Assembly (NCBI GenBank): GCA_030145305.1
Contig: JAQYVX010000004.1
Coordinates: forward strand, 186,001 to 250,000
Length of the DNA stretch: 64,000 bases
Origin: Halarcobacter sp.
GTDB lineage: Bacteria > Campylobacterota > Campylobacteria > Campylobacterales > Arcobacteraceae
Direction: 5' to 3'
Made by a program: the position numbers and the translations under genes. Below are positions 41,044-56,703 of this stretch, in pieces. Every line of letters starts with the position of its first letter. Within the stretch, counting starts at the first letter, position 1. Under the pieces are notes generated by a model. The model was not told the DNA's origin and searched no databases. It saw only the letters and a list, made by a program, of their open reading frames with translations.

Positions 41044-42249
41044 TTAGAATTTGTAAGATAAATAAATTCTTGTTGTATCAGTATCTTCATCTACAATCCC
41101 AGCTGGATTAATAATATTTTCTGTTTCTACATGCTCATAATTTATTTTTAATAAGAAGTTTTTACTTATTGGATAAATCACCATTGCACCTATAGCATCA
41201 ACATCTCCTAAAGCATGGGATTTTGAAGAAGATTTTCCTGCATAAGAAATAACTGTTGCATCTGCAATTGGAGCAATAATCCCCCCAACAATAGTATCCG
41301 TGTCAGCTCTTGTTGGTACTCCACCTCCATGAACTGGCATAGCTGTAAAAGGAGTATCAGAAGTACCTGTTCCTACTCCTGTATATACAGGAGCATTTTT
41401 ATCAGTACTTGAGTTGTATGCAAGTATATATCCTAGTTTCCAGATCCCTAACGGTCCCATTGCTCTTAAACCGAACAATTCTCCATCTTGAGCATTTGAA
41501 GCTTGAGTCTTGTCAGTCGAAGATAAGGCTTGAAAAGAAAGATTATGCCCGGCAATTGTATAATCTGCTTGAAAATATAAAACATCTTTATCAGAAGTTT
41601 TAGTTTCACCATCTTCATTTAAGTATTGTGCTTGTAATGTTAAATTTTCTAAAGAAGTATTTTTAGCATAAATAGAATATGCTCCATCTTGAAATTTATC
41701 AAAATCAGAGGTATCTCCTAAGCCATCAGTTTTCCCCTGATATTTATTTATATAAGCGGCACTTAAAATTGTATTAGGGATATCTGTATTCGTTAAAACA
41801 TATGCTTCAAAAGAATCTTTTAAAATTGACTCTGAAGACTTACCTTCAATTGCTGTACTTACAAGAGGTGTAGACATAAATTGCCTACCAACTTTTAAGT
41901 TTGTATTTGAAATTGTATAATCAATATAAGATTCTGATAAAACTGCACCTGATGCATCTAAATCATTTACAAAAACGTCACTATTATTGTCATCATTTAT
42001 TATAGAAGAAGCTTGAAAAGTAACACCTGCTGTAAATCCATAATAAGAGGCAGTTTTTAGACCTAAACTCCCACCTATTCCAATAATATCATCTGATTTT
42101 GCTTTTCCTAAAAAGTTCGAATCTGAATATTCTGCTTTTATTTCACCTTTTACTTTCGAGTTTGCAAAAGCTTCTGATAAATTTTCTGCATGTAATGAAC
42201 CCACTAGAACTAACGAAGTAGCTAAACTTAACTTTACAATTTTTTTCAT
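41044..42249 (-). CDS. Outer-membrane porin, phenol regulon
   Basis: A 401-residue protein with a signal peptide ending near SLHA, a short helical ENLSEAFANSKVKGEI start, alternating beta strands and a C-terminal RIYLSYKF ending in Phe, as expected for a beta-barrel. It resembles Campylobacter major porin-type proteins and the second porin at 49646. An exact copy of the GCGA tandem operator lies upstream. I infer uptake of aromatic substrate; specificity is unknown. Confidence 0.8.
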   Translation of the reverse strand: MKKIVKLSLATSLVLVGSLHAENLSEAFANSKVKGEIKAEYSDSNFLGKAKSDDIIGIGGSLGLKTASYYGFTAGVTFQASSIINDDNNSDVFVNDLDASGAVLSESYIDYTISNTNLKVGRQFMSTPLVSTAIEGKSSESILKDSFEAYVLTNTDIPNTILSAAYINKYQGKTDGLGDTSDFDKFQDGAYSIYAKNTSLENLTLQAQYLNEDGETKTSDKDVLYFQADYTIAGHNLSFQALSSTDKTQASNAQDGELFGLRAMGPLGIWKLGYILAYNSSTDKNAPVYTGVGTGTSDTPFTAMPVHGGGVPTRADTDTIVGGIIAPIADATVISYAGKSSSKSHALGDVDAIGAMVIYPISKNFLLKINYEHVETENIINPAGIVDEDTDTTRIYLSYKF

Positions 42250-42437: not shown

Positions 42438-43130
42438 TCAATCTAATGAATTTATACAATAGCCACACCCTTGGACGTTTATTATAATATTATTATATGT
42501 TTTTGCTCTAATTTTTTTTATGCACATTCTTAAAGCTTCTGAACTCATACTTTTATTTTCCCAGACATAGTTTTCTATAGTTGAAAAAGAAACGACATTA
42601 TTTATATTTGAAATTAATAAATCGAAAAGTTTTTTCTCTGTTTTTGTAAAATTTATTATCTTATTTTCTTCATCCCTTAAGGATTTATTATTTTTTTCAT
42701 AAATAAAACCTTTTAATAAAAGAACTTTTGAATTATAAATATCTTTAGTAGCCATAAGAATCTGTGTTTGTAATTCTTCTATTTGTATTGGCTTTCTTAA
42801 ATAGCTATAAACTCTTTGATTAATACTCCCTAATATATTTTCTGAACTATCATATGAAGTCATTATTATTACAATAAGGTGAGGTGAGATATCATGCATT
42901 AGTTTAACCATCTCTAGACCATTCATTTCTGGCATATTAATATCTGCAATTACAACATCAGGCTTATCAACTTCGAATTTTTCATAACCTTCTATTCCAT
43001 TTTTTGCGATATCTACTCTTTTGCAATATAAACTTAATGATTGTTTTATACTAAAAGCTGTCATTTCATTATCTTCAACTATCAAAATTTTTATATTTGA
43101 TAATTTATTTAATATTTTACTATCTAACAT
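42438..43130 (-). CDS. OmpR-type response regulator of the periplasmic reductase module
   Basis: A 230-residue regulator. Receiver: IVEDNEM acid pocket, phosphoacceptor Asp in VVIADINMPEMNG, Lys in LRKPIQ. The winged helix (about 145-230) has FTKTEKKLFDLL and QGCGYCINS. It starts 2 bases after its kinase stop. The pair is divergent from the flavoprotein/cytochrome/lyase operon and is the likely regulator of it. Confidence 0.86.
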   Translation of the reverse strand: MLDSKILNKLSNIKILIVEDNEMTAFSIKQSLSLYCKRVDIAKNGIEGYEKFEVDKPDVVIADINMPEMNGLEMVKLMHDISPHLIVIIMTSYDSSENILGSINQRVYSYLRKPIQIEELQTQILMATKDIYNSKVLLLKGFIYEKNNKSLRDEENKIINFTKTEKKLFDLLISNINNVVSFSTIENYVWENKSMSSEALRMCIKKIRAKTYNNIIINVQGCGYCINSLD

Positions 43131-43132
43131 TA

Positions 43133-45136
43133 CTAATCCTTTGTATTACAAGGTAGGGTAATTAAAAAAGTTGTAGGCTTAACTAAACTTACAACAGTCA
43201 AATCCCCATTTAATTTCTTTCTAACTATTAATCTTGAAAGATATAGTCCCGTCCCTGTTCCTTTATCTTTTTTAGTTGTTTGGAAAGATTGAAACATTTT
43301 ACTTTCCATTTCAGAAGGAATTCCAATTCCATAATCACTAACTTCTATATAATAATTGTATTTTTCATATCTTATTCGTATCTTTATTTCTTTTAAACTA
43401 TTTTTATCTTCTAAAATTGCATCATTTGCATTTTGAAGAAGATTTGCAATAATTTGCTGAAATTCATTTTTATAATTTAAACAAGAACAAACTTTATAAT
43501 CTATTTTTTCAATAAGAAGCTTTATTCCTGAACTTTTAAATTGAGGTTCTAAAATTTCAGAAACTTCTTCAATTGCTTTATCTACAGTAAAAGTTTGCCA
43601 CTTTTTATTTGGTTTATAAAAATTTCTAAAAGTATCAATTGTATCTGCTAAATAATGAATATTTGAAAGAGAATAATTAAGATTCTCTTCAAAAACTTTA
43701 TCCGTCAATTTATTTAGTCTTTTAAACTGTAAAAGGTTTCCAATCATTATTGATAAAGAATTCAAAGGTTGTCGCCATTGATGAGAAACTGCAGCTATCA
43801 TTTCTCCTAAATCAGCCATTTTTGATTGTTGAAATAATATATCTTCATACTCTTTTTTTTCAATACTTGCTTTCATTTTTTTTGATACATCTTTTATTAA
43901 AATAATTACACCTTGGTAAACTTCTTCTTTACTTAAAACAGGAAACACTTCAAAAAGAAAATATTTTGGATTTTCTTCTTCATTTAATGCAATAAGTATC
44001 TCTTTTGATTCATAATTTATTTTCGCATCTTTAATACTATTGATTATTTCTTTTTTCATTTCAAAAGATAAAAGACTAAATATTTGTGTTTTTTTATCTA
44101 AAACTTTCTCTTTAATTTCCTCTAGTTGAAGGATATCCTTGAATAATTTATTTTTAAATATTATCTTATCTTTATCATCAATAATCAAGACCCCACTATC
44201 ACCATGTTGTATATAATGATTTAAAATAGACTTTGTCTTTTTAAGACTTTCATCACTATCTCTTTGATTTCTATAATAAAAAAAATTTAAAAGTAAAAAA
44301 ACAAGAAGACTAATTCCATAAATTGCTAAATTTACAAAAAGTTGAAAATTAATTTTCTCATAAACACTACTTTTTTTAAGTTGTGCCACTATGTGCCAAT
44401 TGGAAAATTTTATTTTCTCTTGATAAAAAAGATAAAGTTCCTCTTTTTTATCAATAAAAAAATATTTATTAGCACTTAATGTTTTAAACCCAGAAATAGT
44501 TAAATCTTTATTTGAGTCAGGGTGAAGAATAATTTTACCCAGATAATTAACAATAAAAGCAAATCCATCATAAGGTAAAGATATATCTAAGATTTCTTCT
44601 TTAATCTTATCTAATGGCAAAATGCCACAGACAACACCACTTCTATCACTTATATTCTCTTTAAAAGGAGTACAAATAGATACTACAAGTTTCTTTAATC
44701 CCATATCTACATATGGAGAAGTGACAATTACCTCATCTTTATTAATAGTGCTCTTATACCATGGTCTATTTGTTGTAATATAATTCTTAGGTTTTTTCCA
44801 CTCTACTCCTGAAATAATAGTATCATCATCATATCCTACATAAATATTTTCAAAATTCGCAACATTGGTACTTCTTAGAATAAAATTCTTTATTTTTAAT
44901 TCATTAGTATGATCCATTTTAATTAGGAAATCTCTTATTGCTTCAGTGCTATCAATTTTTTGTTGAAACCATGTTCCTATTCTTGTAGAAACACCTTTTA
45001 CTGCATCTTTTTGTTGAGTAGAAATTGTATCGTGTAATAATTGGCGGTTTATTAAATAATTGGAAAGAATTAATAAGAAGAATATCACACTAAAACTTAT
45101 TATAGTTTTCAGATTTTTTATATTTATAAAACTCAT
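43133..45136 (-). CDS. dCache-PAS sensor histidine kinase
   Basis: A 667-residue membrane kinase. TM1 is at about 12-28 and TM2 at about 272-294, flanking a periplasmic double-Cache domain with a TNRPWYKS motif. In amino-acid-binding dCache domains Arg-Trp-Tyr of this motif contact the ligand, but the usual late Asp appears as GIL in VVCGILPL. A PAS domain (about 305-425) and a kinase core with SHQWRQPL and DYGIGIP follow. It probably senses the periplasmic substrate or product of the divergent operon; the ligand is not known. Confidence 0.87.
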   Translation of the reverse strand: MSFINIKNLKTIISFSVIFFLLILSNYLINRQLLHDTISTQQKDAVKGVSTRIGTWFQQKIDSTEAIRDFLIKMDHTNELKIKNFILRSTNVANFENIYVGYDDDTIISGVEWKKPKNYITTNRPWYKSTINKDEVIVTSPYVDMGLKKLVVSICTPFKENISDRSGVVCGILPLDKIKEEILDISLPYDGFAFIVNYLGKIILHPDSNKDLTISGFKTLSANKYFFIDKKEELYLFYQEKIKFSNWHIVAQLKKSSVYEKINFQLFVNLAIYGISLLVFLLLNFFYYRNQRDSDESLKKTKSILNHYIQHGDSGVLIIDDKDKIIFKNKLFKDILQLEEIKEKVLDKKTQIFSLLSFEMKKEIINSIKDAKINYESKEILIALNEEENPKYFLFEVFPVLSKEEVYQGVIILIKDVSKKMKASIEKKEYEDILFQQSKMADLGEMIAAVSHQWRQPLNSLSIMIGNLLQFKRLNKLTDKVFEENLNYSLSNIHYLADTIDTFRNFYKPNKKWQTFTVDKAIEEVSEILEPQFKSSGIKLLIEKIDYKVCSCLNYKNEFQQIIANLLQNANDAILEDKNSLKEIKIRIRYEKYNYYIEVSDYGIGIPSEMESKMFQSFQTTKKDKGTGTGLYLSRLIVRKKLNGDLTVVSLVKPTTFLITLPCNTKD

Positions 45137-45277: not shown

Positions 45278-46843
45278 TTGAAACTAAATAGAAGAGAGTT
45301 TATTAAAAGCAGTACAGTAATAAGTGGAGCATCTCTTTTAGGGATGAAAATCAACCTATTTGCTAATGATGAACAAATAAAATGGGATGAAGAATGGGAC
45401 GTGATTATTGCAGGTTCTGGTTTTGCAGGTTCATCAGCCCTATGCCAATCTATTGATCTTGGTGCAAAAACTTTAATGATTGATAAAATGCCAGTTCTAG
45501 GTGGAAATTCAGCAATTAATGGAGGAGCTTTCTCAATTGTAGGTTCCCCTCAACAAAAAGAAAGAGGAATTGAAGACTCAACTGAATTATATGTAAAAGA
45601 TATTTATAAAGCTGGCTTAGGTCTAAATATTAAAGAACTAGTAGAGACTATTGCAAAAAATGGACTTGCCGCTTATAAGTTTACAAAAGAAAAAGGTGTT
45701 GTTTATAGAAATAATTTAGGTCATTTTGGAGGACACTCTGTTCCTAGAACAATCTGGCCAGAAATTAACTCAGGTGGGAAAATTACTATTCCACTACAAA
45801 CATATGCACAAAAAAAAGGTGCAACTATTAGAACAAGAGTAATTCTTGATGATTTAATTTTTGACGAAGATGGTAAAAAAATACTTGGTATAAAAGTAAG
45901 AGAAAACTATAAATTTAAATTTGATCCTCAAAGTAATGAAGAAGATAATAAAACTGGCGTTGTTAAATATTACAAAATTAAAGGTGGCATCATTATGGCA
46001 ACTGGAGGATTTGCATATGATGTAAACTTCAGACAAAAACTTGATCCAAAACTTACTCCTGATTTAGACTGTACAAATCACTATGGAGCAACAGGTTATG
46101 CTCTTAGAATGATGATGAAACACAAAATTAAAACAAGAGATCTTGGATGGATTCAACTAGGCCCTTGGGGGTCACCTGATGAAAAAGGTTTTGGAATTGC
46201 CCCTGTATTCGCAATTCCTGCATTTGCTTATGGAGTAATGGTTGATTCAAGAACAGGAAAAAGATTTGTAAATGAACTTGCAGATAGAAAAGTTAGAGCT
46301 GATGCTATTTTAAAAATTCATAAAAATCCTGATGGTTCTATCTCTCATCCAGTTGTGTTATGTGATAGCATGGGAGCAACAGGTACTAGAAAAGAGAATG
46401 TTTATAGAGGCATCCATAAAAAAGTTATTCACAAGTTTGATACTTTAAAAGAATTAGCAGAATTTTATAAAATCCCTTATGAAGGATTACAAAAGACTGT
46501 TGATGATTATAATCAATATGTTATTGATGGAAAAGATTTAGAAATGGACAAACCTTTCTTCAAATTAAGAAATAAATTTGTTCCAAATATTACAAAACCT
46601 CCTTTCTTTGCTTTTAGAGCAATGCCAAAAGTTCACCATACTATGGGTGGAGTTGCTATTGATACAAGTGCAAGAGTATTAAACCAAAATGAAGAAGTTA
46701 TTGAAGGACTATTTGCAGCTGGGGAAGCTACTGGAGGAGCACATGGTGCGAGTAGATTAGGAAGTTGTGCTGTTCCAGACTGTTTAGTATTTGGAAGAAT
46801 CGCCGCTCAAAGTGCGAATAAATTATTAAATAAAAAGGCGTAG
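45278..46843 (+). CDS. Tat-exported flavoprotein reductase (FccA / urocanate-methacrylate reductase-like)
   Basis: A periplasmic FAD enzyme of the fumarate reductase flavoprotein family, 521 residues, TTG start after AAAAGGAG. A twin-arginine signal (NRREFIKSS) leads the protein. FAD motifs are VIIAGSGFAGSSA and the C-terminal GLFAAGEATGGAHGASRLG. The proton-donor Arg of the family is R337 (ELADRK); H453/H454 and R493 match the carboxylate clamp. The His and Thr-Glu that hold the second carboxylate of fumarate are replaced (QLGPWGS at 293-299). The substrate is thus probably a 2-enoate such as urocanate, cinnamate or acrylate. It has no heme domain and relies on the next two genes. Confidence 0.85.
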   Translation: MKLNRREFIKSSTVISGASLLGMKINLFANDEQIKWDEEWDVIIAGSGFAGSSALCQSIDLGAKTLMIDKMPVLGGNSAINGGAFSIVGSPQQKERGIEDSTELYVKDIYKAGLGLNIKELVETIAKNGLAAYKFTKEKGVVYRNNLGHFGGHSVPRTIWPEINSGGKITIPLQTYAQKKGATIRTRVILDDLIFDEDGKKILGIKVRENYKFKFDPQSNEEDNKTGVVKYYKIKGGIIMATGGFAYDVNFRQKLDPKLTPDLDCTNHYGATGYALRMMMKHKIKTRDLGWIQLGPWGSPDEKGFGIAPVFAIPAFAYGVMVDSRTGKRFVNELADRKVRADAILKIHKNPDGSISHPVVLCDSMGATGTRKENVYRGIHKKVIHKFDTLKELAEFYKIPYEGLQKTVDDYNQYVIDGKDLEMDKPFFKLRNKFVPNITKPPFFAFRAMPKVHHTMGGVAIDTSARVLNQNEEVIEGLFAAGEATGGAHGASRLGSCAVPDCLVFGRIAAQSANKLLNKKA

Positions 46844-46852
46844 GAGAGAATG

Positions 46853-47266
46853 ATGAAAAAGTCAGTATTTATTGCTATTTTTACATTGTTTGCTTGTGTT
46901 GCTGTAAGTATGTTTGCAGCAAATAATTCAGATACAAGTATGGCAGTTAAAAAAGAGTATACAAAAGAAAATTATCCAATCAAAGTTCATCATGGTAAGC
47001 TTAGAATGGATTGTGTTAGTTGTCATGGAGAAGGACCTAAAAGTTCTTATACTGAATTAAGTACAAAAGATTGTTTATCTTGTCATAAAGATTATAAAAC
47101 ATTGGCAAAAAGAACTGAATTCTTGGGATATGATGATAATATTCATGCATCACCACATTATCCAGAAATGGATTGTAATTTGTGTCATTCATCCCACCAA
47201 AAACCACAAAATTATTGTGTAATGTGTCACTCACAAGACAGTATGCAAAAACTAATTGTGCCATAA
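46853..47266 (+). CDS. Periplasmic tetraheme cytochrome c (FccB-like)
   Basis: 137 residues from ATG 46853 (six bases after AGGAG; ATG 46850 is too close). Signal peptide to about residue 24. Four heme motifs: CVSCH, CLSCH, CNLCH and CVMCH. It corresponds to the separate tetraheme subunit of Wolinella Fcc and Geobacter methacrylate reductase systems and would pass electrons to the flavoprotein encoded just before it. Confidence 0.88.
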   Translation: MKKSVFIAIFTLFACVAVSMFAANNSDTSMAVKKEYTKENYPIKVHHGKLRMDCVSCHGEGPKSSYTELSTKDCLSCHKDYKTLAKRTEFLGYDDNIHASPHYPEMDCNLCHSSHQKPQNYCVMCHSQDSMQKLIVP

Positions 47267-47276
47267 GGAGACCAAA

Positions 47277-47864
47277 ATGAAAAATTTATTTAAAAATAAA
47301 GCACTATTATTACTAGTTCTAGGTATTGGTCTATTTATTGGCTTAGTATTTACGTTTGGTGGTCACGCAGTGATCAAAGCAACAAGTGATGATAAGTTTT
47401 GTACCTCATGTCATGCATGGATGGATCCAATGGTTGAAGCCTATCATACTGACCCACATGGTGGGAAAAATGACAAAGGAATTAAGGCTACTTGTGTCTC
47501 TTGTCACTTACCACAAGATAGTTTAGTAAAATATCTTGTCACAAAAGGAGTTAATGGAATAGTCGAAGTTACATCAGTTTTGGTAAATAATGCTGAAGAT
47601 ATGGATTGGCAAAAACACAGAGAAAAAAGAGAATCTTTTGTTTACGATAGTGGATGTATGAGCTGTCATGTAAATATTGAAACTACTGATAGCCAAAGCG
47701 AAGCTGCAAAAGGAATGCACAAAAAATATACACAATATAAAGATGCAAAAAAAGAACCTTTAAGCTGTGTTAGTTGCCACAAAAATGTAGGTCACAAGAA
47801 TTTAAGTAAAATTATATATGACAGAACTCATGAGCCAGTTGGTGAATGGGAAGACGACAAATAA
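47277..47864 (+). CDS. NapC/NrfH-type tetraheme quinol dehydrogenase (FccC-like)
   Basis: 195 residues from ATG 47277, which follows AAGGAGACC; a longer frame from 47256 lacks a binding site. One N-terminal membrane anchor (about 9-30) and four heme motifs (CTSCH, CVSCH, CMSCH, CVSCH). It would oxidise menaquinol and feed the periplasmic cytochrome, which makes the flavoprotein a terminal reductase of an anaerobic respiratory chain. Confidence 0.9.
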   Translation: MKNLFKNKALLLLVLGIGLFIGLVFTFGGHAVIKATSDDKFCTSCHAWMDPMVEAYHTDPHGGKNDKGIKATCVSCHLPQDSLVKYLVTKGVNGIVEVTSVLVNNAEDMDWQKHREKRESFVYDSGCMSCHVNIETTDSQSEAAKGMHKKYTQYKDAKKEPLSCVSCHKNVGHKNLSKIIYDRTHEPVGEWEDDK

Positions 47865-47892
47865 TAACAAGCTATATTTAAAAGGATAGAAG

Positions 47893-49536
47893 ATGAAAAA
47901 ATCAATAATTGTTACAACAAGTTTAATTGCATTTGCAATGATAAATGCATTCGCAGCACCTGTAGTATTAGATGGACAAGACATGACTAGTGATAAGATT
48001 ATGCAAATTGCAAATGGCGAAGATATAAAAATCACCAATTTAGCGATGGAGCGAGTAAGAAATTCACATAATGTATTAATTAAAGCAGCAACAACTGGAC
48101 ACAAAATTTACGGATTAACTGTTGGTGTTGGATTAAATAAAGATCAAAAAATGGTAAATACAAAAGGAACATTAACTAAAGAAGTAGTTAAAGCATCTAC
48201 TGAATTTAACAAAGGTCTTATTCATGCACATTGTGGTGGAGTTGGTGCTGATTTACCAATCAAAGAAGCAAGAGCTGTTATGGCAACAAGATTAAATAAT
48301 ATGCTTTTTGGTGGAACAGGTGTTCAAGAAAAAGTTATTAATATGTACAAACAATTCTTAAATAACAATATTATTCCTGCTATTCCTTCAAAAGGCTCTA
48401 TGGGAGAAGCTGACATTACTATTTTAGGACATATTGGGCTAGCAATGTTAGGAGAAGGAGATGTTTACTATAAAGGTAAAAAAATGTCAGCTAAAGTTGC
48501 TATGGCAGATGCTGGAGTTAAAAAAATCTCTTTATTTGGTAAAGATGCATTGTCAATCATAAGTTCAAATGCTTATTCTGGAGCTTTAGCTGGACTTGCA
48601 TTAGCTGAAATGAAACAACTTACAAAAATTTCTAAATATGTATATGCCTTAAGTTTAGAAGCAGTTAATGGAAATATTGCTCCAATGCATGAGGTTACTA
48701 GAAAATTAAGACCATTCCCAGGTTTTGTAGGAGCTGCAACAAAAATTACTAAAATCTTAGAGGGAAGTTACCTTTGGGAAAAAGATAGTTCAAGAGCTTT
48801 ACAAGATCCATTAAGCTATAGAGATGCTGCTTATATTTTAGGAACATTAGATACTTCTATTTCTAAACTTGATAAACTTATGAATATCCAATGGAATTCA
48901 TCTGATGACAATCCTGGTGTTGCAATCGGTGTTGAAAGCACTACAAATAGATTCCAAGAGAAAAAAGTATATGTTAATGCTGATGGAATCAAAGGTGCAG
49001 TTGTTCCAACAGCAAACTTTGAGCCAATGCCATGGGTAGTTGAATTTGAAGCAAATGCAATTGTATTAGCTCATAACTCAATTGCATCTACACAAAGAAT
49101 AAATAAATTAGATGATCCAAAGTTTACTAAACTTTCTAGATTTTTAGGAACAGCAAAAACTGTACACGCATTTGGTGCAATGCAAAAACCATTTACTGCA
49201 TTAACAGCAGAAAATATTAACTTAGCAAGTCCATTATCATTAATTTCTGCTCCAGCTGCTGGTAATATTGAAGATATTGCTACAAATGCTCCAGGTGTAA
49301 TTACTAAAACTAGAACACAAATTGAAAATCTATATCATATTCTTGGGATGGAATTAATCCATGCGGCACAAGCGATTGATTTAAGAAAACAAAAAAATCC
49401 TAATTTAAAACTTTCTATTAAAACAGAAAAATTGTTTACTGATTTTAGAAAAGTAGTAGACTTTTTAGAAATTGATAGACCTCTTACAAATGACTTTAGA
49501 AATGCTGCTAAATTCTTAAAAACTTATAACTTATAA
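47893..49536 (+). CDS. Secreted histidine/aromatic ammonia-lyase homologue without MIO triad
   Basis: A 547-residue PF00221-type protein with a signal peptide (MKKSIIVTTSLIAFAMINAFA), hence periplasmic, while known HutH and PAL enzymes are cytoplasmic. Family blocks: YGLTVGVG (73-80, for YGxNTGFG), IHAHCGG (110-116), SDDNPGVA and SAPAAGNIEDIATNAPG. The cofactor segment, normally GSxGASGDL, reads GSMGEADIT at 168-176: the Ala-Ser-Gly that cyclises to MIO is gone and one residue is missing. The Tyr of DPYSLR is Leu (DPLSYR). A classical ammonia lyase mechanism seems excluded. Context suggests it makes, isomerises or binds the enoate used by the reductase. Confidence 0.78.
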   Translation: MKKSIIVTTSLIAFAMINAFAAPVVLDGQDMTSDKIMQIANGEDIKITNLAMERVRNSHNVLIKAATTGHKIYGLTVGVGLNKDQKMVNTKGTLTKEVVKASTEFNKGLIHAHCGGVGADLPIKEARAVMATRLNNMLFGGTGVQEKVINMYKQFLNNNIIPAIPSKGSMGEADITILGHIGLAMLGEGDVYYKGKKMSAKVAMADAGVKKISLFGKDALSIISSNAYSGALAGLALAEMKQLTKISKYVYALSLEAVNGNIAPMHEVTRKLRPFPGFVGAATKITKILEGSYLWEKDSSRALQDPLSYRDAAYILGTLDTSISKLDKLMNIQWNSSDDNPGVAIGVESTTNRFQEKKVYVNADGIKGAVVPTANFEPMPWVVEFEANAIVLAHNSIASTQRINKLDDPKFTKLSRFLGTAKTVHAFGAMQKPFTALTAENINLASPLSLISAPAAGNIEDIATNAPGVITKTRTQIENLYHILGMELIHAAQAIDLRKQKNPNLKLSIKTEKLFTDFRKVVDFLEIDRPLTNDFRNAAKFLKTYNL

Positions 49537-49542
49537 AATCGA

Positions 49543-49574
49543 TTAAGAGATGTTCTTCAAACAACATCTCTTAA
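49543..49574 (+). other. Long hairpin between lyase-like gene and porin
   Basis: A perfect 12-bp inverted repeat TTAAGAGATGTT (49543-49554) / AACATCTCTTAA (49563-49574) with an 8-base loop. A-rich, not T-rich, sequence follows, so it is more likely an mRNA end-protecting or partial terminator structure than a full intrinsic terminator. Confidence 0.6.
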
Positions 49575-49645
49575 AAAAAGAATATTGTAGGAAATACAAG
49601 AATCAAGTATTGCCAATTTTAAATTGAACAAAGGAAAGGTAAAAA

Positions 49646-50806
49646 ATGAAATTTATTAAATTTAGTGTCATTACTATAGCTATAATCGCTATCTCATCTT
49701 CATTAAGTGCAACAAGTTTAAGTGAAGCATTAATTGAAGGAAAAGTAACAGGTGATATATCTATTACATATGAACAAAGAAACGTTGATAAAGAAATTAG
49801 CAAGTATTATCAAGATACTGCTTATAGTGTTGGTTCTATTGGATTAGATTATAAATCAGGATCTTATAATAATCTAAGTACAGAAATAGGATTAAGAGCT
49901 TATGCAAACATCTGGGAAGAAGATTCTAATTCTGTAACAGCAAGAGGAATTGGTGATTCTTCTGAAAGGTTTTATGACAAAGCTAGAAAAATTATGCTTT
50001 CAAAAGCATTTATTGCTTATGACAAAAATGATACTCATTTTAAAGTAGGGAGACAATCACTTTCTACTGAATGGATGGGTAAAATTCAAGATGCAGTATC
50101 TTTATATACCTCTCCAATTGAAAATAGTAAATTAGAAATGATTTGGTCTAAAAAAATGGGAAGAGTGTATAGTAGAGAATTTAGAGACTTCAATGACTTG
50201 AATGAAAATAAAGGTGTTTATAAAGCAGGTTTTGAATATAAATTTAATGAACATGTTAAAACAAAAACATATTATATGACTTCACCTGACAAATACAACT
50301 TAGTTGGTGGAAGAATTAATTTAGATGGAACATTAGGTGATGCTAAAATAGGAAGTTTAATTCATGTTATTGAAACAAATGAAAAAATTTCAGATGTGGC
50401 TGATGGTAAGATGTTAGAAGTTAAACTTTATGCCAATTATGCAGGATACTCAGCAACATTGGGATATGTTAAAACTGGAGAAGAAAATGGTTGGGGAAGT
50501 GCAAATACAGCAGGAGAACAAATCGTTCAATTTGAAGAAGGTGATGGTATGTATTATGCTGATGCTGAAACAATTTATTTTTCAGTAAATAAACAAGTTG
50601 GTCCAATTAATATAACAGCTCTTTATGGTGAAATGGAATACACAAAAAATAATTATAAAGAAAAAGAGTTTGATTTATGGGCAGGATATAATATAAGTAA
50701 AAACTTAACTCTAAATGCTGGTTTTACAGTAACTAATACAGATGATAAAGATGCTGGAACTACAGACTTAACTCAATTAAATACTACTTTAGTATATAAG
50801 TTTTAA
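49646..50806 (+). CDS. Outer-membrane porin of the periplasmic reductase module
   Basis: 386 residues: signal peptide to about residue 23 (SLSA), then TSLSEALIEGKVTGDISITYEQR, beta strands and a terminal LVYKF. It belongs to the same family as the porin at 41044. Its placement after the lyase-like gene suggests it admits the substrate to the periplasm, where lyase homologue and reductase are located. Specificity is inferred from context only. Confidence 0.78.
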   Translation: MKFIKFSVITIAIIAISSSLSATSLSEALIEGKVTGDISITYEQRNVDKEISKYYQDTAYSVGSIGLDYKSGSYNNLSTEIGLRAYANIWEEDSNSVTARGIGDSSERFYDKARKIMLSKAFIAYDKNDTHFKVGRQSLSTEWMGKIQDAVSLYTSPIENSKLEMIWSKKMGRVYSREFRDFNDLNENKGVYKAGFEYKFNEHVKTKTYYMTSPDKYNLVGGRINLDGTLGDAKIGSLIHVIETNEKISDVADGKMLEVKLYANYAGYSATLGYVKTGEENGWGSANTAGEQIVQFEEGDGMYYADAETIYFSVNKQVGPINITALYGEMEYTKNNYKEKEFDLWAGYNISKNLTLNAGFTVTNTDDKDAGTTDLTQLNTTLVYKF

Positions 50807-50877: not shown

Positions 50878-53337
50878 TTAGATAATTTCTGGTTTTTCAA
50901 AAACTGTAATTGCTGGTATTTCTTTATTATATTTTTCAATTTCAACTAGTGCAGTGTTTGCAATATTTCCTTGTGCTAATTTTGAAGAACCTTTATCAAT
51001 TGTTAATTGATTCACGTCTCCATGTTTACACATTGTTTTTTCTTCACTTGCATCACTAGGATCATACCATCCACCTTCATCCATTTTTAGAACTCCTGGA
51101 AGTACATTATCTGTAACAATTGCTCCTGCTAATGTTGAACCTCTTTTATTATATACTTTTACGATATCCCCATTTTTTATGCCTCTTTTTTTAGCATCTT
51201 TAGGATTTATCCAAATAGGTTCTCTTCCTTTTACTTCATATAAATCTCTTAACCATGTATTTGACAATTGAGAGTGTAGTCTATACTTAGGGTGTGGAGA
51301 TAAGATATGTAATGGATAATCTTCTGATTCTTTTGAACCTAACCACTCTGCTGGTTCTATCCAACTTGGATAATGTAAACAATCATCATAATTAAATTTT
51401 TTAATAACTCTTGAACTAATTTCAATTTTACCTGATGGTGTTCCTAATGGATTTAACATTGGATTTTGTACATATTTTTCATATCTTGTAAAGTTTTTAT
51501 CTATTTCTTTTACCTCAAATTTCACAAAACCTTTTTCCCAAAACTCGTCAAAAGATGGCATTTTAATACCTTTTTCTTCTGCTTGTACTTTTGAATTTGC
51601 ATAAAATTCTTTTATCCAATCTAGTTGAGTTTCTTTACCATCGGTAAACTCTTCTTCATAACCTAATTTTTTCGAGATAAGTCTACATATTTCATAATCA
51701 TCTTTAGACTCTTGTACAGGTTCAATTGCTTTTTTCATTGCAATAATATGACTACTATCATAATCACCTATTACTTCAATATCATTTCTTTCAATTTCAG
51801 TAGTAGCAGGAAGTACAATATCTGCCATTCTTGCAGTTGGAGTCCAATAAGGTTCATGAACAATAAATGTTTCTAATTTTTTCCAAGCTTCAATCATAGT
51901 ATTTCTATCTTGATGGTGATGGAAGGGATTTCCACTTGTCCAATAAACCATTTTAATATCTGGATATTCAATTTTTCTACCATTGAAGTCAATTGTTTTT
52001 CCTGGGTTGGCTATCATATCAACCATTCTTGCACAAGGAATATTAAAAGGTTTATAATTTTTCCATGGACCATCTTTTTTACTATTAATATTTGTAGATA
52101 TTCCACCTAATCCTGGAGCATCTGCACTTGGAGTTCCCCCATTTGAATAGTGGTAACTAAATCCAAACCCACAACCAGGAACACCCACTTGTCCTAACAT
52201 ACAAGCTAAAGTAACTAGTGTCCAATGGAATTGTTCTCCATGGTCTGCTCTTTGAACACCCCAGCCTGCCATTAACATACTTTTTTCATCTCTTAATTTT
52301 TGTGCAAATTGTTTAATTACTTTTTCTTCAACCCCACAAATATTAGAAGCCCACTTAAGTGTTTTTGGAGTTTTATCAGTTTTCCCTAATAAATAATCCT
52401 CAAAATCTTTAAATCCAACTGTATATTTTTTTATAAATTCTTTATCATATTGATTTGTTGTATGTAAATGATACATCATACCTAGCATCATTGCAACATC
52501 AGTATTTGGTTTTGGTTTAATCTGTGTTGAATCAAAATACATTGCTGTATCATTTTTTATAGGGTCAACAGAATAAACATCAACTTGTCCATCTTTATGC
52601 GCTTTTTTTAATTGTTCTAAGTATGGGAAAGCTCCATGTCCTGCTACATCCCACTCAATCTGACAAGTTACTAAAGGATTCGCTCCCCAAAATACAACAT
52701 TTTTAGCATGTTTTAAAACTAAAGGCCATGATGTTTGTTGCTCATATACTTCAATACTTCCTAAAACATGTGGCAAAATTACTTGTGCAGCAGCGGTAGA
52801 ATAATCACCAATTCTCCCTACATATCCACCTGAAATTTTCATCATTCTATTCATTAAAGTTTGAGGATTATGAAGTTTACCAGTACAATACCAGCCATAA
52901 CTTCCGGCATAAATACTTTTATAACCATAAGTTTTTTGTACTCTTTTTATTTCTGACGTAACTAAATCAAGCGCCTTTTCCCAAGATACTCTTACGAATT
53001 TTTCAGATCCTCTTTTTGATGAATCACTTTTATGTCCATCTTTTAAAAATCCTTCTCTTACCATTGGATATTCAACTCTTGTTTTTGAATATGTTCTAGC
53101 AGGTAAAGCATTTATCATTGGAGAAGGGAAAGGGTCATCTTCAAATGCAGTAACTCCCGTAAATTGACCACCCTTTACATGTGCTCTAAAAGCTCCAAAA
53201 TGCGAAGCACTAATTTTATTTGAAGTATTAGCTATTGGGCCACTAATTAAACTATCTGCCGGTAAATTACTAACTAATAGCGCACTTGCAGCTACCCCAC
53301 TTCCTTTTAAAAAATCTCTTCTTTTTATATTACTCAT
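50878..53337 (-). CDS. Mo-bis-MGD S-/N-oxide reductase, copy 1 (TorA/DorA/BisC family)
   Basis: A Tat-exported (KRRDFLKGS) periplasmic molybdoenzyme of 819 residues. The Mo-ligand Ser lies in GDYSTAAAQV. Its GSYGW motif contains the Tyr found in DMSO and biotin sulfoxide reductases; as I recall it, E. coli TorA has GASGW there. VYEQQTSWPL matches TorA. Substrate could be TMAO, DMSO or other S-/N-oxides. Campylobacter jejuni Cj0264c is the likely closest characterised relative. It overlaps the cytochrome gene by 8 bases, and needs the molybdate imported by the mod system. Confidence 0.88.
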   Translation of the reverse strand: MSNIKRRDFLKGSGVAASALLVSNLPADSLISGPIANTSNKISASHFGAFRAHVKGGQFTGVTAFEDDPFPSPMINALPARTYSKTRVEYPMVREGFLKDGHKSDSSKRGSEKFVRVSWEKALDLVTSEIKRVQKTYGYKSIYAGSYGWYCTGKLHNPQTLMNRMMKISGGYVGRIGDYSTAAAQVILPHVLGSIEVYEQQTSWPLVLKHAKNVVFWGANPLVTCQIEWDVAGHGAFPYLEQLKKAHKDGQVDVYSVDPIKNDTAMYFDSTQIKPKPNTDVAMMLGMMYHLHTTNQYDKEFIKKYTVGFKDFEDYLLGKTDKTPKTLKWASNICGVEEKVIKQFAQKLRDEKSMLMAGWGVQRADHGEQFHWTLVTLACMLGQVGVPGCGFGFSYHYSNGGTPSADAPGLGGISTNINSKKDGPWKNYKPFNIPCARMVDMIANPGKTIDFNGRKIEYPDIKMVYWTSGNPFHHHQDRNTMIEAWKKLETFIVHEPYWTPTARMADIVLPATTEIERNDIEVIGDYDSSHIIAMKKAIEPVQESKDDYEICRLISKKLGYEEEFTDGKETQLDWIKEFYANSKVQAEEKGIKMPSFDEFWEKGFVKFEVKEIDKNFTRYEKYVQNPMLNPLGTPSGKIEISSRVIKKFNYDDCLHYPSWIEPAEWLGSKESEDYPLHILSPHPKYRLHSQLSNTWLRDLYEVKGREPIWINPKDAKKRGIKNGDIVKVYNKRGSTLAGAIVTDNVLPGVLKMDEGGWYDPSDASEEKTMCKHGDVNQLTIDKGSSKLAQGNIANTALVEIEKYNKEIPAITVFEKPEII

Positions 53338-53926
53338 GACTTTTTCCTTTTGTAGTTTCTGCTTGTATATATTTAGTTATATATTTCACATCTTGTTTTG
53401 TTAAGCCTGCTCTTGACTTCATACCTTCAATTATATTTGGCCACTGATTAGTTGTATAATGTTTTATTTCAGGAGAGACATGACACGAACCACATCTAGT
53501 TACAAATAATTCTTGACCTTCTTTATATACCTCATCTATGTTTGTTGTTAATGATTTTTCATTTACCCAAAGAGTATAAGAAACTTTTTTCCATTGAGTT
53601 TCAAAAGAATCTGTTTTTTCTGCAAGTTCTTTAGGTTTTTTCGTTTTATTATCATTTAATACTAAATAAAAAACTCGCTCTCCTACATCTTTAAAAAGAA
53701 CATTTTCAAAACCATATCCTCCCCAACCAACAACTTTTATTTCTTTAAAGTTTCCTTTTGAAGATAATATTTCTACAGGTGTAGCGGTATCGATTTTCCC
53801 AATTTCTTTTTTCCCATCTGCATTTAAAAAGACTTTTGAATCGTGACTTATAAAGCCATTTTGTCCTGCAAAAAGTAATGAAGTTGAAAAGAGTATACTA
53901 CTCAAAATAATTTTATTTTTTTTCAT
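53330..53926 (-). CDS. Monoheme cytochrome c partner of reductase copy 1 (Cj0265c-like)
   Basis: 198 residues: signal peptide to about residue 20, an SH3-like beta domain (25-85), and a C-terminal heme domain with CGSCH followed by HYTTNQWPNIIEGMKSRAGL, the pattern of the C-terminal TorC domain. It probably hands electrons to the adjacent molybdoenzyme. A tandem AAGTATAA box lies upstream. Confidence 0.87.
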   Translation of the reverse strand: MKKNKIILSSILFSTSLLFAGQNGFISHDSKVFLNADGKKEIGKIDTATPVEILSSKGNFKEIKVVGWGGYGFENVLFKDVGERVFYLVLNDNKTKKPKELAEKTDSFETQWKKVSYTLWVNEKSLTTNIDEVYKEGQELFVTRCGSCHVSPEIKHYTTNQWPNIIEGMKSRAGLTKQDVKYITKYIQAETTKGKSHE

Positions 53927-53945
53927 ATTTATTCCTTATTTTTTT

Positions 53946-53985
53946 ACTATAAGAAGTTTATGACAGAAGTATAATTAAAGTATAA
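53946..53985 (-). promoter_or_regulatory. Tandem AAGTATAA operator before cytochrome/reductase copy 1
   Basis: AAGTATAA at 53967-53974 and 53978-53985 (plus-strand view), period exactly 11 bp, with TATAGT at 53951-53946 on the minus strand as a possible -10. The same repeat recurs at 56747-56765. Confidence 0.55.
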
Positions 53986-54008
53986 TCTTTTAAAAATATA
54001 GAGTTTTT

Positions 54009-54698
54009 TTATTTTATTGTGAGTTTATATCCTATACCTTGAATATTTTCAATAAGTTCTGGATAAATTTTTTTACGAAGTTTATTAATAAACATTCTTA
54101 TGGCATCAGGAGTTGCACCATTTTCCATCCAAACATAGTTTTCAATTAAAGAAAAAGGAACAGGATGTTCTTGATGTTTTAAAAGAAGTTCTAATAAACG
54201 TTGTTCCTTTTTTGTTAAAGAAATTATTTCCTCTTTTAAAGTCAATTCTTTTGTATCAAAATTATACTTATAACCATTTAATAAATTTAATAATGTAAAT
54301 TCCTCTTTAAACGTATTCATTGCTAGCATCATTGATACAATTAGTTGTTTTTTATCAAATGGTTTTTTTAATACACTTTTACTTTTTAAATTAATTGCTT
54401 CAATCATATTTTCATCTGTATCATAAGCTGTTAAAAATATAATAGGAATATGAGGATCAAATTTACGTATTTCACTACTCATTCTTAAGCCAGTCATTTT
54501 TGCCATATGTATATCTGAAATAATCAAATCTATTTCTTTTTGTTGAAAAATTTCTAAACCTTCAATTCCATTTTTGGCAACAAAAACTTTATTTACGTAC
54601 TCTTCAATAGACTCTTCCAAAATATCTAACAAACCAATTTCATCTTCTACTATTAATATATTTTTATTCTTAAAAAGTTCTTTTACTTTCTCATACAT
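54009..54698 (-). CDS. OmpR-type response regulator of reductase copy 1
   Basis: 229 residues. Receiver with IVEDEIGL, phosphoacceptor Asp in LIISDIHMAKMTG and Lys in LKKPFDK; winged helix with LTKKEQRLLELLL and QGIGYKLTIK. It overlaps the kinase gene by 8 bases. The tandem AAGTATAA boxes before the torC-like gene and before its own kinase are candidate targets. Confidence 0.87.
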   Translation of the reverse strand: MYEKVKELFKNKNILIVEDEIGLLDILEESIEEYVNKVFVAKNGIEGLEIFQQKEIDLIISDIHMAKMTGLRMSSEIRKFDPHIPIIFLTAYDTDENMIEAINLKSKSVLKKPFDKKQLIVSMMLAMNTFKEEFTLLNLLNGYKYNFDTKELTLKEEIISLTKKEQRLLELLLKHQEHPVPFSLIENYVWMENGATPDAIRMFINKLRKKIYPELIENIQGIGYKLTIK

Positions 54699-56703
54699 TT
54701 GATTTTCCTATTTTAATTGTAAACTTTGTTGGCTTACTCAAATTCTCAAGTTTAAATTCTCCATTCATCTTATTTTCAATTAAAAGTTTACATAAATAAA
54801 GTCCGGTTCCTGTCCCTTGTTCCCCTTTTGTAGTAAAAAATGGCTCAAAGATTTTATTTTTATTTTCATTAGAAATACCAGATCCATTATCTTCTACACT
54901 TATAAGATAACAGCCATCTTTTTTTGAAAGCGCAATATTTATTTTTGCTTCATAAAGAAATTTATCTTTTAAAACTCGTACTAATTCATCTTTTGCATTT
55001 CCTATTAAGTTAATTAAAACTTGTTTTATATAAGAAGGATAACTTTCACAAGAATAGGAATTTTTTTCATCATATATAAATTTTAATTCTATTCCATTCA
55101 TCTGCATTTGAGGTGAAGTAATTAAGATTATTTCTTTAATAATCTTTACCAAATCAAATTTATCTTTTCCAAAGTCTTCTTTATAGAAATTTCTAAAAGC
55201 ATTTATTGTTTCATCCATCAATTCAATATTCCCTCTTGCCCTATTTAAATAGTTATTTACCTTTGGAAGATTTTGTTTTTCTATAATCTCTTCTGTATTA
55301 CTAATTAACATTAAAAGGGTACTTAAAGGCTGTCTCCATTGATGAGATATGGCACTAACCATTTCTCCTAAGGCTGCCATTTTACTATTTTGGATCAAAA
55401 TTTGTTCTTGTTCTACCTCTTTTTGTTCTAGCTCTCGTTCATGAGTTACATCATGAATAGTAACAATAGCCCCTTCTAATTCTTCTTGATAGTTATTAAG
55501 TAGTGGAGTTATTTGAACTCTATAAATTTTTTCTTCTTTTTCTAAAAGATAAGATTTCATTTTAAGAAGATTATTTTTTATATCTTGAAAACAAGAGATT
55601 TGATTTGAATTACTACATTTTAAAATATCTATAATTGAATCTAAAGGTTTATTATATAAACTTTTACTCTTTAAAGAAAAAACTTCCTCAAATACTTTAT
55701 TTATAAAGATTATTTTCCCTTCTTTATCTGTTAATAAAACACCCCAAGTTGGACTTTTTGCAAAATGTCCTAAAAGTAAATGTTTTTCATAAAGTTTCTT
55801 TTGTGTAATTGATAAATACAAAAATGTTCCCAGTCCAAAAATAAAAAGAACAAAAGCAGCAAGTAAATTCAAAAAAAGTTGATGATTTAAACTCTTATAA
55901 ATTTTATTCTCATCAAGTACAGATACAAAAAACCAGTCACTATTATCTAAAGTTTCATAAGTAAAAATATATAGTTTATTTTCTATTAGAATTCTTTTCT
56001 CACCAATTTCTTTATTAGAAAAAGTAGATAAAAACTCTTTTAGCTTTTTATCTTCAAAATCAATTCCTAAATTATTTGAAGGAGTAATTACCTCTGCATT
56101 TTTTGTCATCAAAAAAGCAAAGCCTTCATCAATAGAAAAAAGCTTTGATACCTCTTTTTGAACTAATTCAAGTTCTAAATCACTTGACATTACAGCTAGC
56201 AGTTGATTATTCTTATAAATAGGAGAAGCAATGCTTATATAAATTTTATCTTCAAATCCTGGTGAGCCAGAATAAGGCTTTGAAATTATTGTTTTTTTCT
56301 CTTCTACAGCTTCTTTATACCAAGATCTTTTCGTTGCAAAATAATCACTAGTATGATACCAATATTTTAGGCCAGAAATAAGATAATCATCTGGATACCC
56401 AATATAAACACTTTTAAAGCCTGCTCCTGAACTAATTGCAGTTGATAAAGCTTCTTTTATAGCAGCGAAGTCTTTCTTTCTATCTTTTTTAACTAGGTTT
56501 TCACCCATAGTTTCAACAATTCTTTTTAATCCAGCTAATCTTTCATCAAATTTTTCTTTATATGCATGAACTAATTTAATTTGATTATTTCTAATACTTT
56601 GAAGAAAATAAGCTTTATTTTCTGTATATGTAGAGTAAATTATAAAAAAATATAAAACAAAAAAAACAAGCGAAATAAGGATAAATATTTTGTTACGTTT
56701 CAT
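54691..56703 (-). CDS. dCache-PAS sensor histidine kinase of reductase copy 1
   Basis: 670 residues with the same plan as the kinase at 43133: TM1 (about 7-26), periplasmic double Cache, TM2 (about 275-298), PAS (about 310-430), then SHQWRQPL and DNGSGIS. The Cache pocket keeps KRSWYKEA and a late Asp in MSSDLELE, so the Arg-Trp-Tyr-Asp set of amino-acid or amine-binding dCache domains is complete. An amine-like ligand would fit an N-oxide reductase; the ligand is inference. Confidence 0.86.
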   Translation of the reverse strand: MKRNKIFILISLVFFVLYFFIIYSTYTENKAYFLQSIRNNQIKLVHAYKEKFDERLAGLKRIVETMGENLVKKDRKKDFAAIKEALSTAISSGAGFKSVYIGYPDDYLISGLKYWYHTSDYFATKRSWYKEAVEEKKTIISKPYSGSPGFEDKIYISIASPIYKNNQLLAVMSSDLELELVQKEVSKLFSIDEGFAFLMTKNAEVITPSNNLGIDFEDKKLKEFLSTFSNKEIGEKRILIENKLYIFTYETLDNSDWFFVSVLDENKIYKSLNHQLFLNLLAAFVLFIFGLGTFLYLSITQKKLYEKHLLLGHFAKSPTWGVLLTDKEGKIIFINKVFEEVFSLKSKSLYNKPLDSIIDILKCSNSNQISCFQDIKNNLLKMKSYLLEKEEKIYRVQITPLLNNYQEELEGAIVTIHDVTHERELEQKEVEQEQILIQNSKMAALGEMVSAISHQWRQPLSTLLMLISNTEEIIEKQNLPKVNNYLNRARGNIELMDETINAFRNFYKEDFGKDKFDLVKIIKEIILITSPQMQMNGIELKFIYDEKNSYSCESYPSYIKQVLINLIGNAKDELVRVLKDKFLYEAKINIALSKKDGCYLISVEDNGSGISNENKNKIFEPFFTTKGEQGTGTGLYLCKLLIENKMNGEFKLENLSKPTKFTIKIGKSNV

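Follow-up and report, generated by a model that had tools for sequence, protein, structure and literature searches.

What does a bacterium do with an aromatic-lyase homologue, an enoate reductase, two tetraheme cytochromes and a porin encoded side by side? The question is raised by five consecutive plus-strand genes (45278-50806) in the window, a stretch of 64,000 nucleotides from Halarcobacter sp. (Campylobacterota, Arcobacteraceae; assembly GCA_030145305.1, contig JAQYVX010000004.1, positions 186,001 to 250,000). The initial annotation saw in them a periplasmic elimination coupled to a quinol-driven periplasmic reduction, with histidine or aromatic amino acids as candidate substrates and urocanate as a candidate acceptor. 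The coupling is upheld as the best reading, with other compounds: we propose that the locus is a periplasmic ergothioneine-respiration module whose substrates are ergothioneine and thiourocanate, a reading based on sequence to which we assign a probability of about 0.7. The genes, the signal-like N-termini, the heme and flavin adenine dinucleotide (FAD) families with their cofactor motifs, the loss of the triad that forms the 4-methylideneimidazole-5-one (MIO) cofactor of ammonia-lyases, and the conserved linkage are features of the sequence itself. The locus comprises the following genes (Tat, twin-arginine translocation):

42438 to 43130, minus strand: OmpR-type response regulator of the divergent two-component system (Response_reg and Trans_reg_C)
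43133 to 45136, minus strand: dCache sensor histidine kinase, a putative substrate sensor, kept beside the module (dCache_1 at 71.7 bits, HATPase_c, HisKA)
45278 to 46843, plus strand: Tat-type FAD enoate reductase, proposed thiourocanate reductase (521 aa; FAD_binding_2; TIGR01813)
46850 to 47266, plus strand: soluble periplasmic tetraheme cytochrome c, proposed electron carrier to the reductase (138 aa; Cytochrom_c3_2; four CxxCH motifs)
47277 to 47864, plus strand: membrane-anchored NapC/NrfH-type tetraheme quinol dehydrogenase (195 aa; Cytochrom_NNT (NapC/NirT) at 110 bits; four CxxCH motifs)
47893 to 49536, plus strand: periplasmic MIO-less aromatic lyase, proposed ergothionase, a trimethylamine lyase (547 aa; Lyase_aromatic; GSMGEAD replaces ASG; hydrophobic N-terminus)
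49646 to 50806, plus strand: Opr-family outer-membrane porin, possible route of substrate entry, loosely linked (386 aa; NF033923 at 460 bits, cut-off 150)

The five genes lie at the coordinates first given, on one strand, and a dCache two-component system does run divergently from them. The gaps between successive genes, from reductase to porin, are 6, 10, 28 and 109 bases. The reductase gene has a TTG start with an AAGGAG ribosome-binding site six bases ahead of it, and a listing by first start begins the NapC-type open reading frame (ORF) at 47256 instead of 47277.

The initial annotation had proposed the co-occurrence of the lyase-like and flavoprotein genes as a check and a lack of conserved linkage as its refutation; linkage was found in all 18 genomes that carry a lyase orthologue, in two gene orders. 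Among 104 genomes of the window's family, the lyase orthologue occurs in four (77-100% identity) and the reductase orthologue in the same four (81-100%), with the next reductase at 45%. Among 397 Campylobacterota genomes, for which scoring covered up to three candidates in each genome, the lyase occurs in 16 (58-100%) and the reductase in the same 16 (67-100%), clustered in each, with the next reductase at 48%; neither gene is found without the other at orthologue levels. The two samples overlap, and their union is 18 module genomes (the 16 plus G077 and G078, both of the window's family). The core four genes (lyase, reductase, soluble tetraheme and NapC-type cytochrome) are clustered in 18/18, which suggests that the cluster is more than chance. 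All four Arcobacteraceae loci have regulator and kinase, divergent, followed by reductase, tetraheme, NapC-type cytochrome and lyase. In a second family (f3, probably Campylobacteraceae) the order is lyase, porin where present, reductase, tetraheme, NapC-type cytochrome, and then kinase and regulator where present, with the core four genes complete in 14/14. The strongest sign of joint function is that the clustering was retained after rearrangement. The kinase-regulator pair lies beside the module in 4/4 Arcobacteraceae and 12/14 f3 loci (in one, L075, the regulator appears as two ORFs). The porin, which the initial annotation had counted as a member, does adjoin the module in the window and is its loosest component: it is present in 9/14 f3 loci and in 1/4 Arcobacteraceae loci, that of the window; none was seen in the 17-19 kb retrieved around the remaining three modules of that family.

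Sequence comparison indicates that the lyase (47893-49536) is probably of the ergothionase type rather than an ammonia-lyase. Its best match in the PDB is the Treponema denticola ergothionase 6s7j (E = 7.2e-91, 308 bits), ahead of the best histidine ammonia-lyase (HAL; E = 2.1e-43, 152 bits), and over aligned columns it is 39% identical to the T. denticola enzyme versus 23% and 28% to two MIO lyases. T. denticola supplied the reference ergothionase for this comparison; an enzyme of Burkholderia sp. HME13 has also been characterised. The description of the protein as a periplasmic lyase-like enzyme stands as far as the Lyase_aromatic family and the signal-like N-terminus go, and had missed that the MIO-forming Ala-Ser-Gly is absent: the window lyase reads GSMGEADIT and the T. 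denticola enzyme SSIGEGDIT, so that the ASG column holds E[A/G] (E172-A173 in the window). GEAD occupies this column in the lyases of all 18 module genomes, and ASGD is kept in the 27 other Arcobacteraceae PF00221 loci that we read. An alignment of 63 rows contained 27 without ASG (four of them truncated, of which three are partial copies) and 36 with it. Residues common to T. denticola and the MIO-less rows and not to the MIO lyases include N82-K83-D84, N106, S224, N226, N259, L307, D338, E377, E386 and K432, among others; we assigned ergothionase membership on N82, K83, D84, L307, D338, E377 and K432, which the T. denticola enzyme has too and which MIO lyases seldom or never carry. The L307 column, which we take to be HAL Tyr280, the Tyr of the QD-x-YS motif, is Tyr in 36/36 MIO rows. 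H113 and E460 are retained; they correspond to HAL His83 and Glu414, which hold the imidazole ring, and their retention fits an imidazole-type ring.

The phylogeny agrees with this assignment. In a maximum-likelihood tree of 45 rows, all 23 MIO-less rows fell on one side of a branch with 100/100 support, and the window lyase formed a further 100/100 group with 19 others, including Burkholderiales and Sinorhizobium meliloti relatives. A fold search with an AlphaFold model of the lyase returned 6s7j first (Z = 39.3, root-mean-square deviation 3.4, 485 aligned residues), with a HAL at Z = 38.5 and HALs within 1-3 Z of 6s7j. By fold, ergothionase and HAL are level, and sequence alone separates them. 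A hydrophobic N-terminus, judged by a Kyte-Doolittle hydropathy window rather than a signal-peptide predictor, is present in the 17 undisrupted module lyases and not in the T. denticola chain. The window lyase scored 264 bits against the NCBIfam HutH equivalog TIGR01225, for which the cut-off is 539. In seven scanned lyases of this type, the top-ranked NCBIfam models were those for histidine ammonia-lyase, and that scan brought up no model for ergothionase.

The neighbourhoods of more distant relatives point to ergothioneine. Deeper lyases, 36% identical to that of the window, lie in ert-type operons of two Campylobacterota genomes (G262 and G206), the ert enzymes being those of ergothioneine degradation by their NCBIfam names. 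The G262 lyase has as neighbours ErtD (hydantoin-5-propionate amidohydrolase; 676 bits, cut-off 600), ErtE just under its cut-off (505, cut-off 520), thiohydantoin desulfurase (612, cut-off 440), thiourocanate hydratase (974, cut-off 930) and a major facilitator superfamily transporter; in G206 the desulfurase is above its cut-off and the hydratase just below (911, cut-off 930). Among plasmid records, 838 matched the lyase and three were examined (Burkholderia arboris, Paraburkholderia and S. meliloti). In B. arboris the lyase shares 52-54% identity with that of the window, and a thiourocanate hydratase and a thiohydantoin desulfurase, both over cut-off, lie within about 4.2 kb upstream of it.

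This downstream route was not found in the module genomes themselves. Urocanase was found in 0/18 of them versus 2/2 Campylobacterota ert-type genomes, and thiohydantoin desulfurase likewise in 0/18 versus 2/2; the pair that marks the ert pathway in a genome, thiourocanate hydratase plus thiohydantoin desulfurase, was thus not found in any of the 18. With no urocanase found, hydration by that family would not be open there, which makes reduction the natural and likely exit. A search of 20 genomes for EgtD (PF10017), the methyltransferase of ergothioneine biosynthesis, gave partial matches in four, all module genomes, covering at most 84 of 304 positions; two exceeded Pfam's low cut-off (26.8 and 25 bits versus 23). 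We tentatively read these as other methyltransferases, and as the matches are only partial, the substrate is probably of outside origin.

The reductase scores 431 bits against flavocytochrome c TIGR01813 (cut-off 285), and its best relative in the PDB is urocanate reductase 6t85. All 18 module reductases carry a twin-Arg motif. Together, a Tat-type FAD protein, a separate tetraheme cytochrome and a NapC/NrfH-type quinol dehydrogenase make up the set expected of a chain of the Fcc or methacrylate-reductase type, as had been proposed, and from their sequences the three would form a path from quinol to the periplasm. A NapC-type member presumably belongs to the Wolinella Fcc system as well. The residues that UrdA, the urocanate reductase of Shewanella oneidensis, uses for proton donation (Arg411), for the carboxylate and for the imidazole ring are described in PMC7921117. 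Arg411, Arg560 and His520 are retained in 18/18 module reductases (R337, R493 and H453 in the window), and also in 18/18 Glu177 is replaced by Ala (A84), Asp388 by Ile (I313), Tyr373 by Gly (G295) and Phe243 by Gly, which removes the polar imidazole contacts (now A and I). We took Asp388 (or Asn/Gln) together with Tyr373 as the mark of a UrdA-type site, and the window reductase has neither. These losses argue against plain urocanate as the acceptor. Nor was the N-terminal covalent flavin mononucleotide (FMN) domain of UrdA matched: Pfam gives FAD-binding models only, from residue 41, after the Tat-type signal.

Many Campylobacterota genomes hold further flavocytochrome-c reductases at 37-48% identity to the module reductase. 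In the 19 such paralogues with fetched loci, most rows depart from the module reductases at columns 177, 243, 245, 388 and 389, and this variation of active-site columns suggests other enoate acceptors for them. By their sequences, the module reductases are a distinct group of enoate reductases and not UrdA. Among plasmid records the best reductase match is 42% identical (Tropicibacter oceani) and lies beside a cytochrome c3; no lyase was found within 6 kb of it.

These observations can be assembled into a mechanism, in which we infer the substrates of lyase and reductase, the path and order of electron flow and regulation by the dCache system. Ergothioneine would enter across the outer membrane, possibly by way of the Opr porin, and the secreted ergothionase would eliminate trimethylamine from it without an MIO cofactor, leaving thiourocanate in the periplasm. 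Electrons from menaquinol would pass through the NapC-type tetraheme protein and the soluble tetraheme cytochrome to the Tat-exported FAD reductase, which would saturate the C=C bond of thiourocanate, the electron acceptor, to give 3-(2-thioimidazolyl)propionate. Induction of the operon is probably the role of the divergent two-component system. We consider it fairly probable that this amounts to complete respiration on ergothioneine in a single organism, with a secreted ergothionase making the terminal electron acceptor in the periplasm.

Several observations weigh against this proposal. The Paraburkholderia GEAD relative (51% identical) adjoins a canonical hutU (967 bits; the model for thiourocanate hydratase gives 688, cut-off 930) and HutC, a context suggesting that the clade may hold other trimethylamine-lyase specificities, with hercynine possible for parts of it. 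G262 and G206 (2/397 Campylobacterota genomes) have the 36% GEAD lyase without the module reductase. Long branches of the tree lead to the two deeper lyases and to T. denticola ergothionase, and the program warns of such joins. Gly at the UrdA Tyr373 column also occurs in 15/19 paralogues and is thus not diagnostic, and the AlphaFold model of the reductase, built from a two-row alignment, has a mean predicted local distance difference test (pLDDT) score of 29. In one f3 genome (L085, G280:C3) the lyase gene seems disrupted near its 5′ end, with reductase and cytochromes intact.

The alternative that survives best keeps the same architecture with another histidine betaine (hercynine giving urocanate, S-methyl-ergothioneine or ergothioneine sulfonate), the reductase acting on the matching urocanate derivative. 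The hutU/HutC neighbourhood in Paraburkholderia speaks for it, as do the separate NCBIfam families for S-methyl-thiourocanate and S-methyl-thiohydantoin enzymes and a bacterial ergothioneine sulfonate pathway cited in PMC13405746. We nevertheless regard it as unlikely: the lyase residues match those of the T. denticola ergothionase, relatives in ert contexts are both more distant (36%) from the window lyase and similarly distant (52%), the urocanate contacts of UrdA are gone in 18/18 reductases, and the 18 module genomes gave no urocanase.

A reductase respiring fumarate, methacrylate or acrylate, with the lyase an independent passenger serving, for example, nitrogen or methylamine supply, appears very improbable. 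Similar parts do make up Wolinella FccA and Geobacter Mrd/Mcc (PMC4427408), and many reductase paralogues exist with unassigned substrates; against this stand the full co-occurrence of lyase and reductase in the searched genomes, their clustering despite rearrangement, and the Gly at the UrdA Tyr373 column, where fumarate reductases have His. On this last residue a plain fumarate reductase was rejected, and the histidine/urocanate, phenylalanine/cinnamate and acrylate readings were lowered because of the MIO loss and the UrdA residues. An ammonia-lyase acting on histidine or aromatic amino acids, with the module respiring urocanate or cinnamate as in the leading examples of the initial annotation, is hardly credible: the Pfam family, the NCBIfam ranking and the hutH annotation of a similar S. 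meliloti gene favour it, and against it are GEAD in place of ASG throughout the module genomes, a HutH score less than half the cut-off, Leu where MIO rows have an invariant Tyr, the ergothionase-type residues, and a reductase stripped of the UrdA ring contacts.

The ergothioneine module may be set beside several known systems. The T. denticola ergothionase (PDB 6s7j/6s7q) shares with the window lyase the MIO-less aromatic-lyase fold and the diagnostic residues, and ert operons combine relatives of this lyase with thiourocanate hydratase and thiohydantoin desulfurase; unlike either, the window lyase has a signal-like N-terminus and clusters with a reductase chain, and no urocanase or desulfurase was found in the 18 module genomes. 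According to citations in PMC13405746, Clostridium symbiosum has ergothionase activity and thiourocanate gives Bacteroides xylanisolvens a growth and ATP benefit (Zhou 2025), and a thiourocanate desulfhydrase has been described (Feng 2025). In that two-species cross-feeding, as cited there, ergothioneine likewise gives thiourocanate and trimethylamine, and an anaerobe draws on thiourocanate for growth and ATP synthesis, whereas here both steps seem to lie in one organism, in one gene cluster and in the periplasm, with a quinol-linked NapC/tetraheme supply and a two-component system, and this is what seems new. UrdA of S. oneidensis is alike in superfamily (flavocytochrome c), in Arg411, Arg560 and His520 and in respiratory enoate reduction, and differs from the window reductase in its FMN-binding domain, in Glu177, Asp388, Tyr373 and Phe243, and in that the latter is encoded with a tetraheme cytochrome. 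Wolinella succinogenes Fcc and Geobacter Mrd/Mcc also pair a Tat-exported FAD subunit with a separate Sec-exported tetraheme cytochrome (for Wolinella, PMC4427408); they differ from the module in its coupling to a substrate-generating lyase and in its predicted acceptor, thiourocanate. Among the matches listed in a search of open-licence literature (titles and the starts of abstracts), none dealt with Campylobacterota that use ergothioneine or thiourocanate as electron acceptor.

If the proposal is true, a nutrient that does not serve as an oxidant in its own right becomes one through the elimination. Ergothioneine, an antioxidant of mushrooms and animal tissue, would be stripped and its product then "breathed" without oxygen. 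It would join the respiratory substrates of the phylum, in which the same gene set occurs in two families, and would be for these bacteria a source of trimethylamine as well, so that a bacterial origin of this amine not hitherto recognised would be named. One set among the many unassigned flavocytochrome/NapC loci in Campylobacterota would also gain a defined function. An annotation gap is apparent in that NCBIfam ranks histidine ammonia-lyase models first for the seven scanned lyases. As a general idea, that elimination in the periplasm can supply an electron acceptor becomes directly testable with two purified proteins.

A few further observations concern the lyase family and the surroundings of the module. 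A single scan of genome contigs for the lyase returned five loci, one in Malaciobacter halophilus, a near relative in Arcobacteraceae (79% identical to the window lyase), and four Bacteroidota lyases that keep ASG. The window genome has a second aromatic lyase (L001, G000:C18:280097-281488) with the ASG triad kept; as no urocanase was found in this genome, it probably lies outside any hut pathway. The S. meliloti pSymA relative (L091, 7953-9593), annotated hutH, is an outlier with GQAD and without K432 and may release trimethylamine from some other substrate; close to it are an ABC transporter and an annotated dimethylsulfoniopropionate (DMSP) lyase.

Between the lyase and porin genes lies a perfect 12-bp inverted repeat with an 8-base loop (49543-49574), followed on the plus strand by A's and not T's, hence no clear plus-strand terminator. 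A second Opr-like porin (41044-42249, minus strand; 51 bits, cut-off 150) lies divergently past the regulator, so that porins flank the module on both sides in the window genome. Directly past the module, on the minus strand (50878-56703), are a TorA-type trimethylamine N-oxide (TMAO) reductase, a small cytochrome resembling the TorC C-terminus and a second dCache two-component system. The TorA-type protein scores 1101 bits against TIGR00509 (over cut-off) and 984 against PRK15102 (cut-off 909), and is below the TIGR02164 cut-off; the stretches retrieved around the other three Arcobacteraceae modules showed no TorA. The second dCache system shares about 30% identity with the kinases of those modules and 36-37% with their regulators. 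Trimethylamine would be the product common to the module and the adjoining TorA system.

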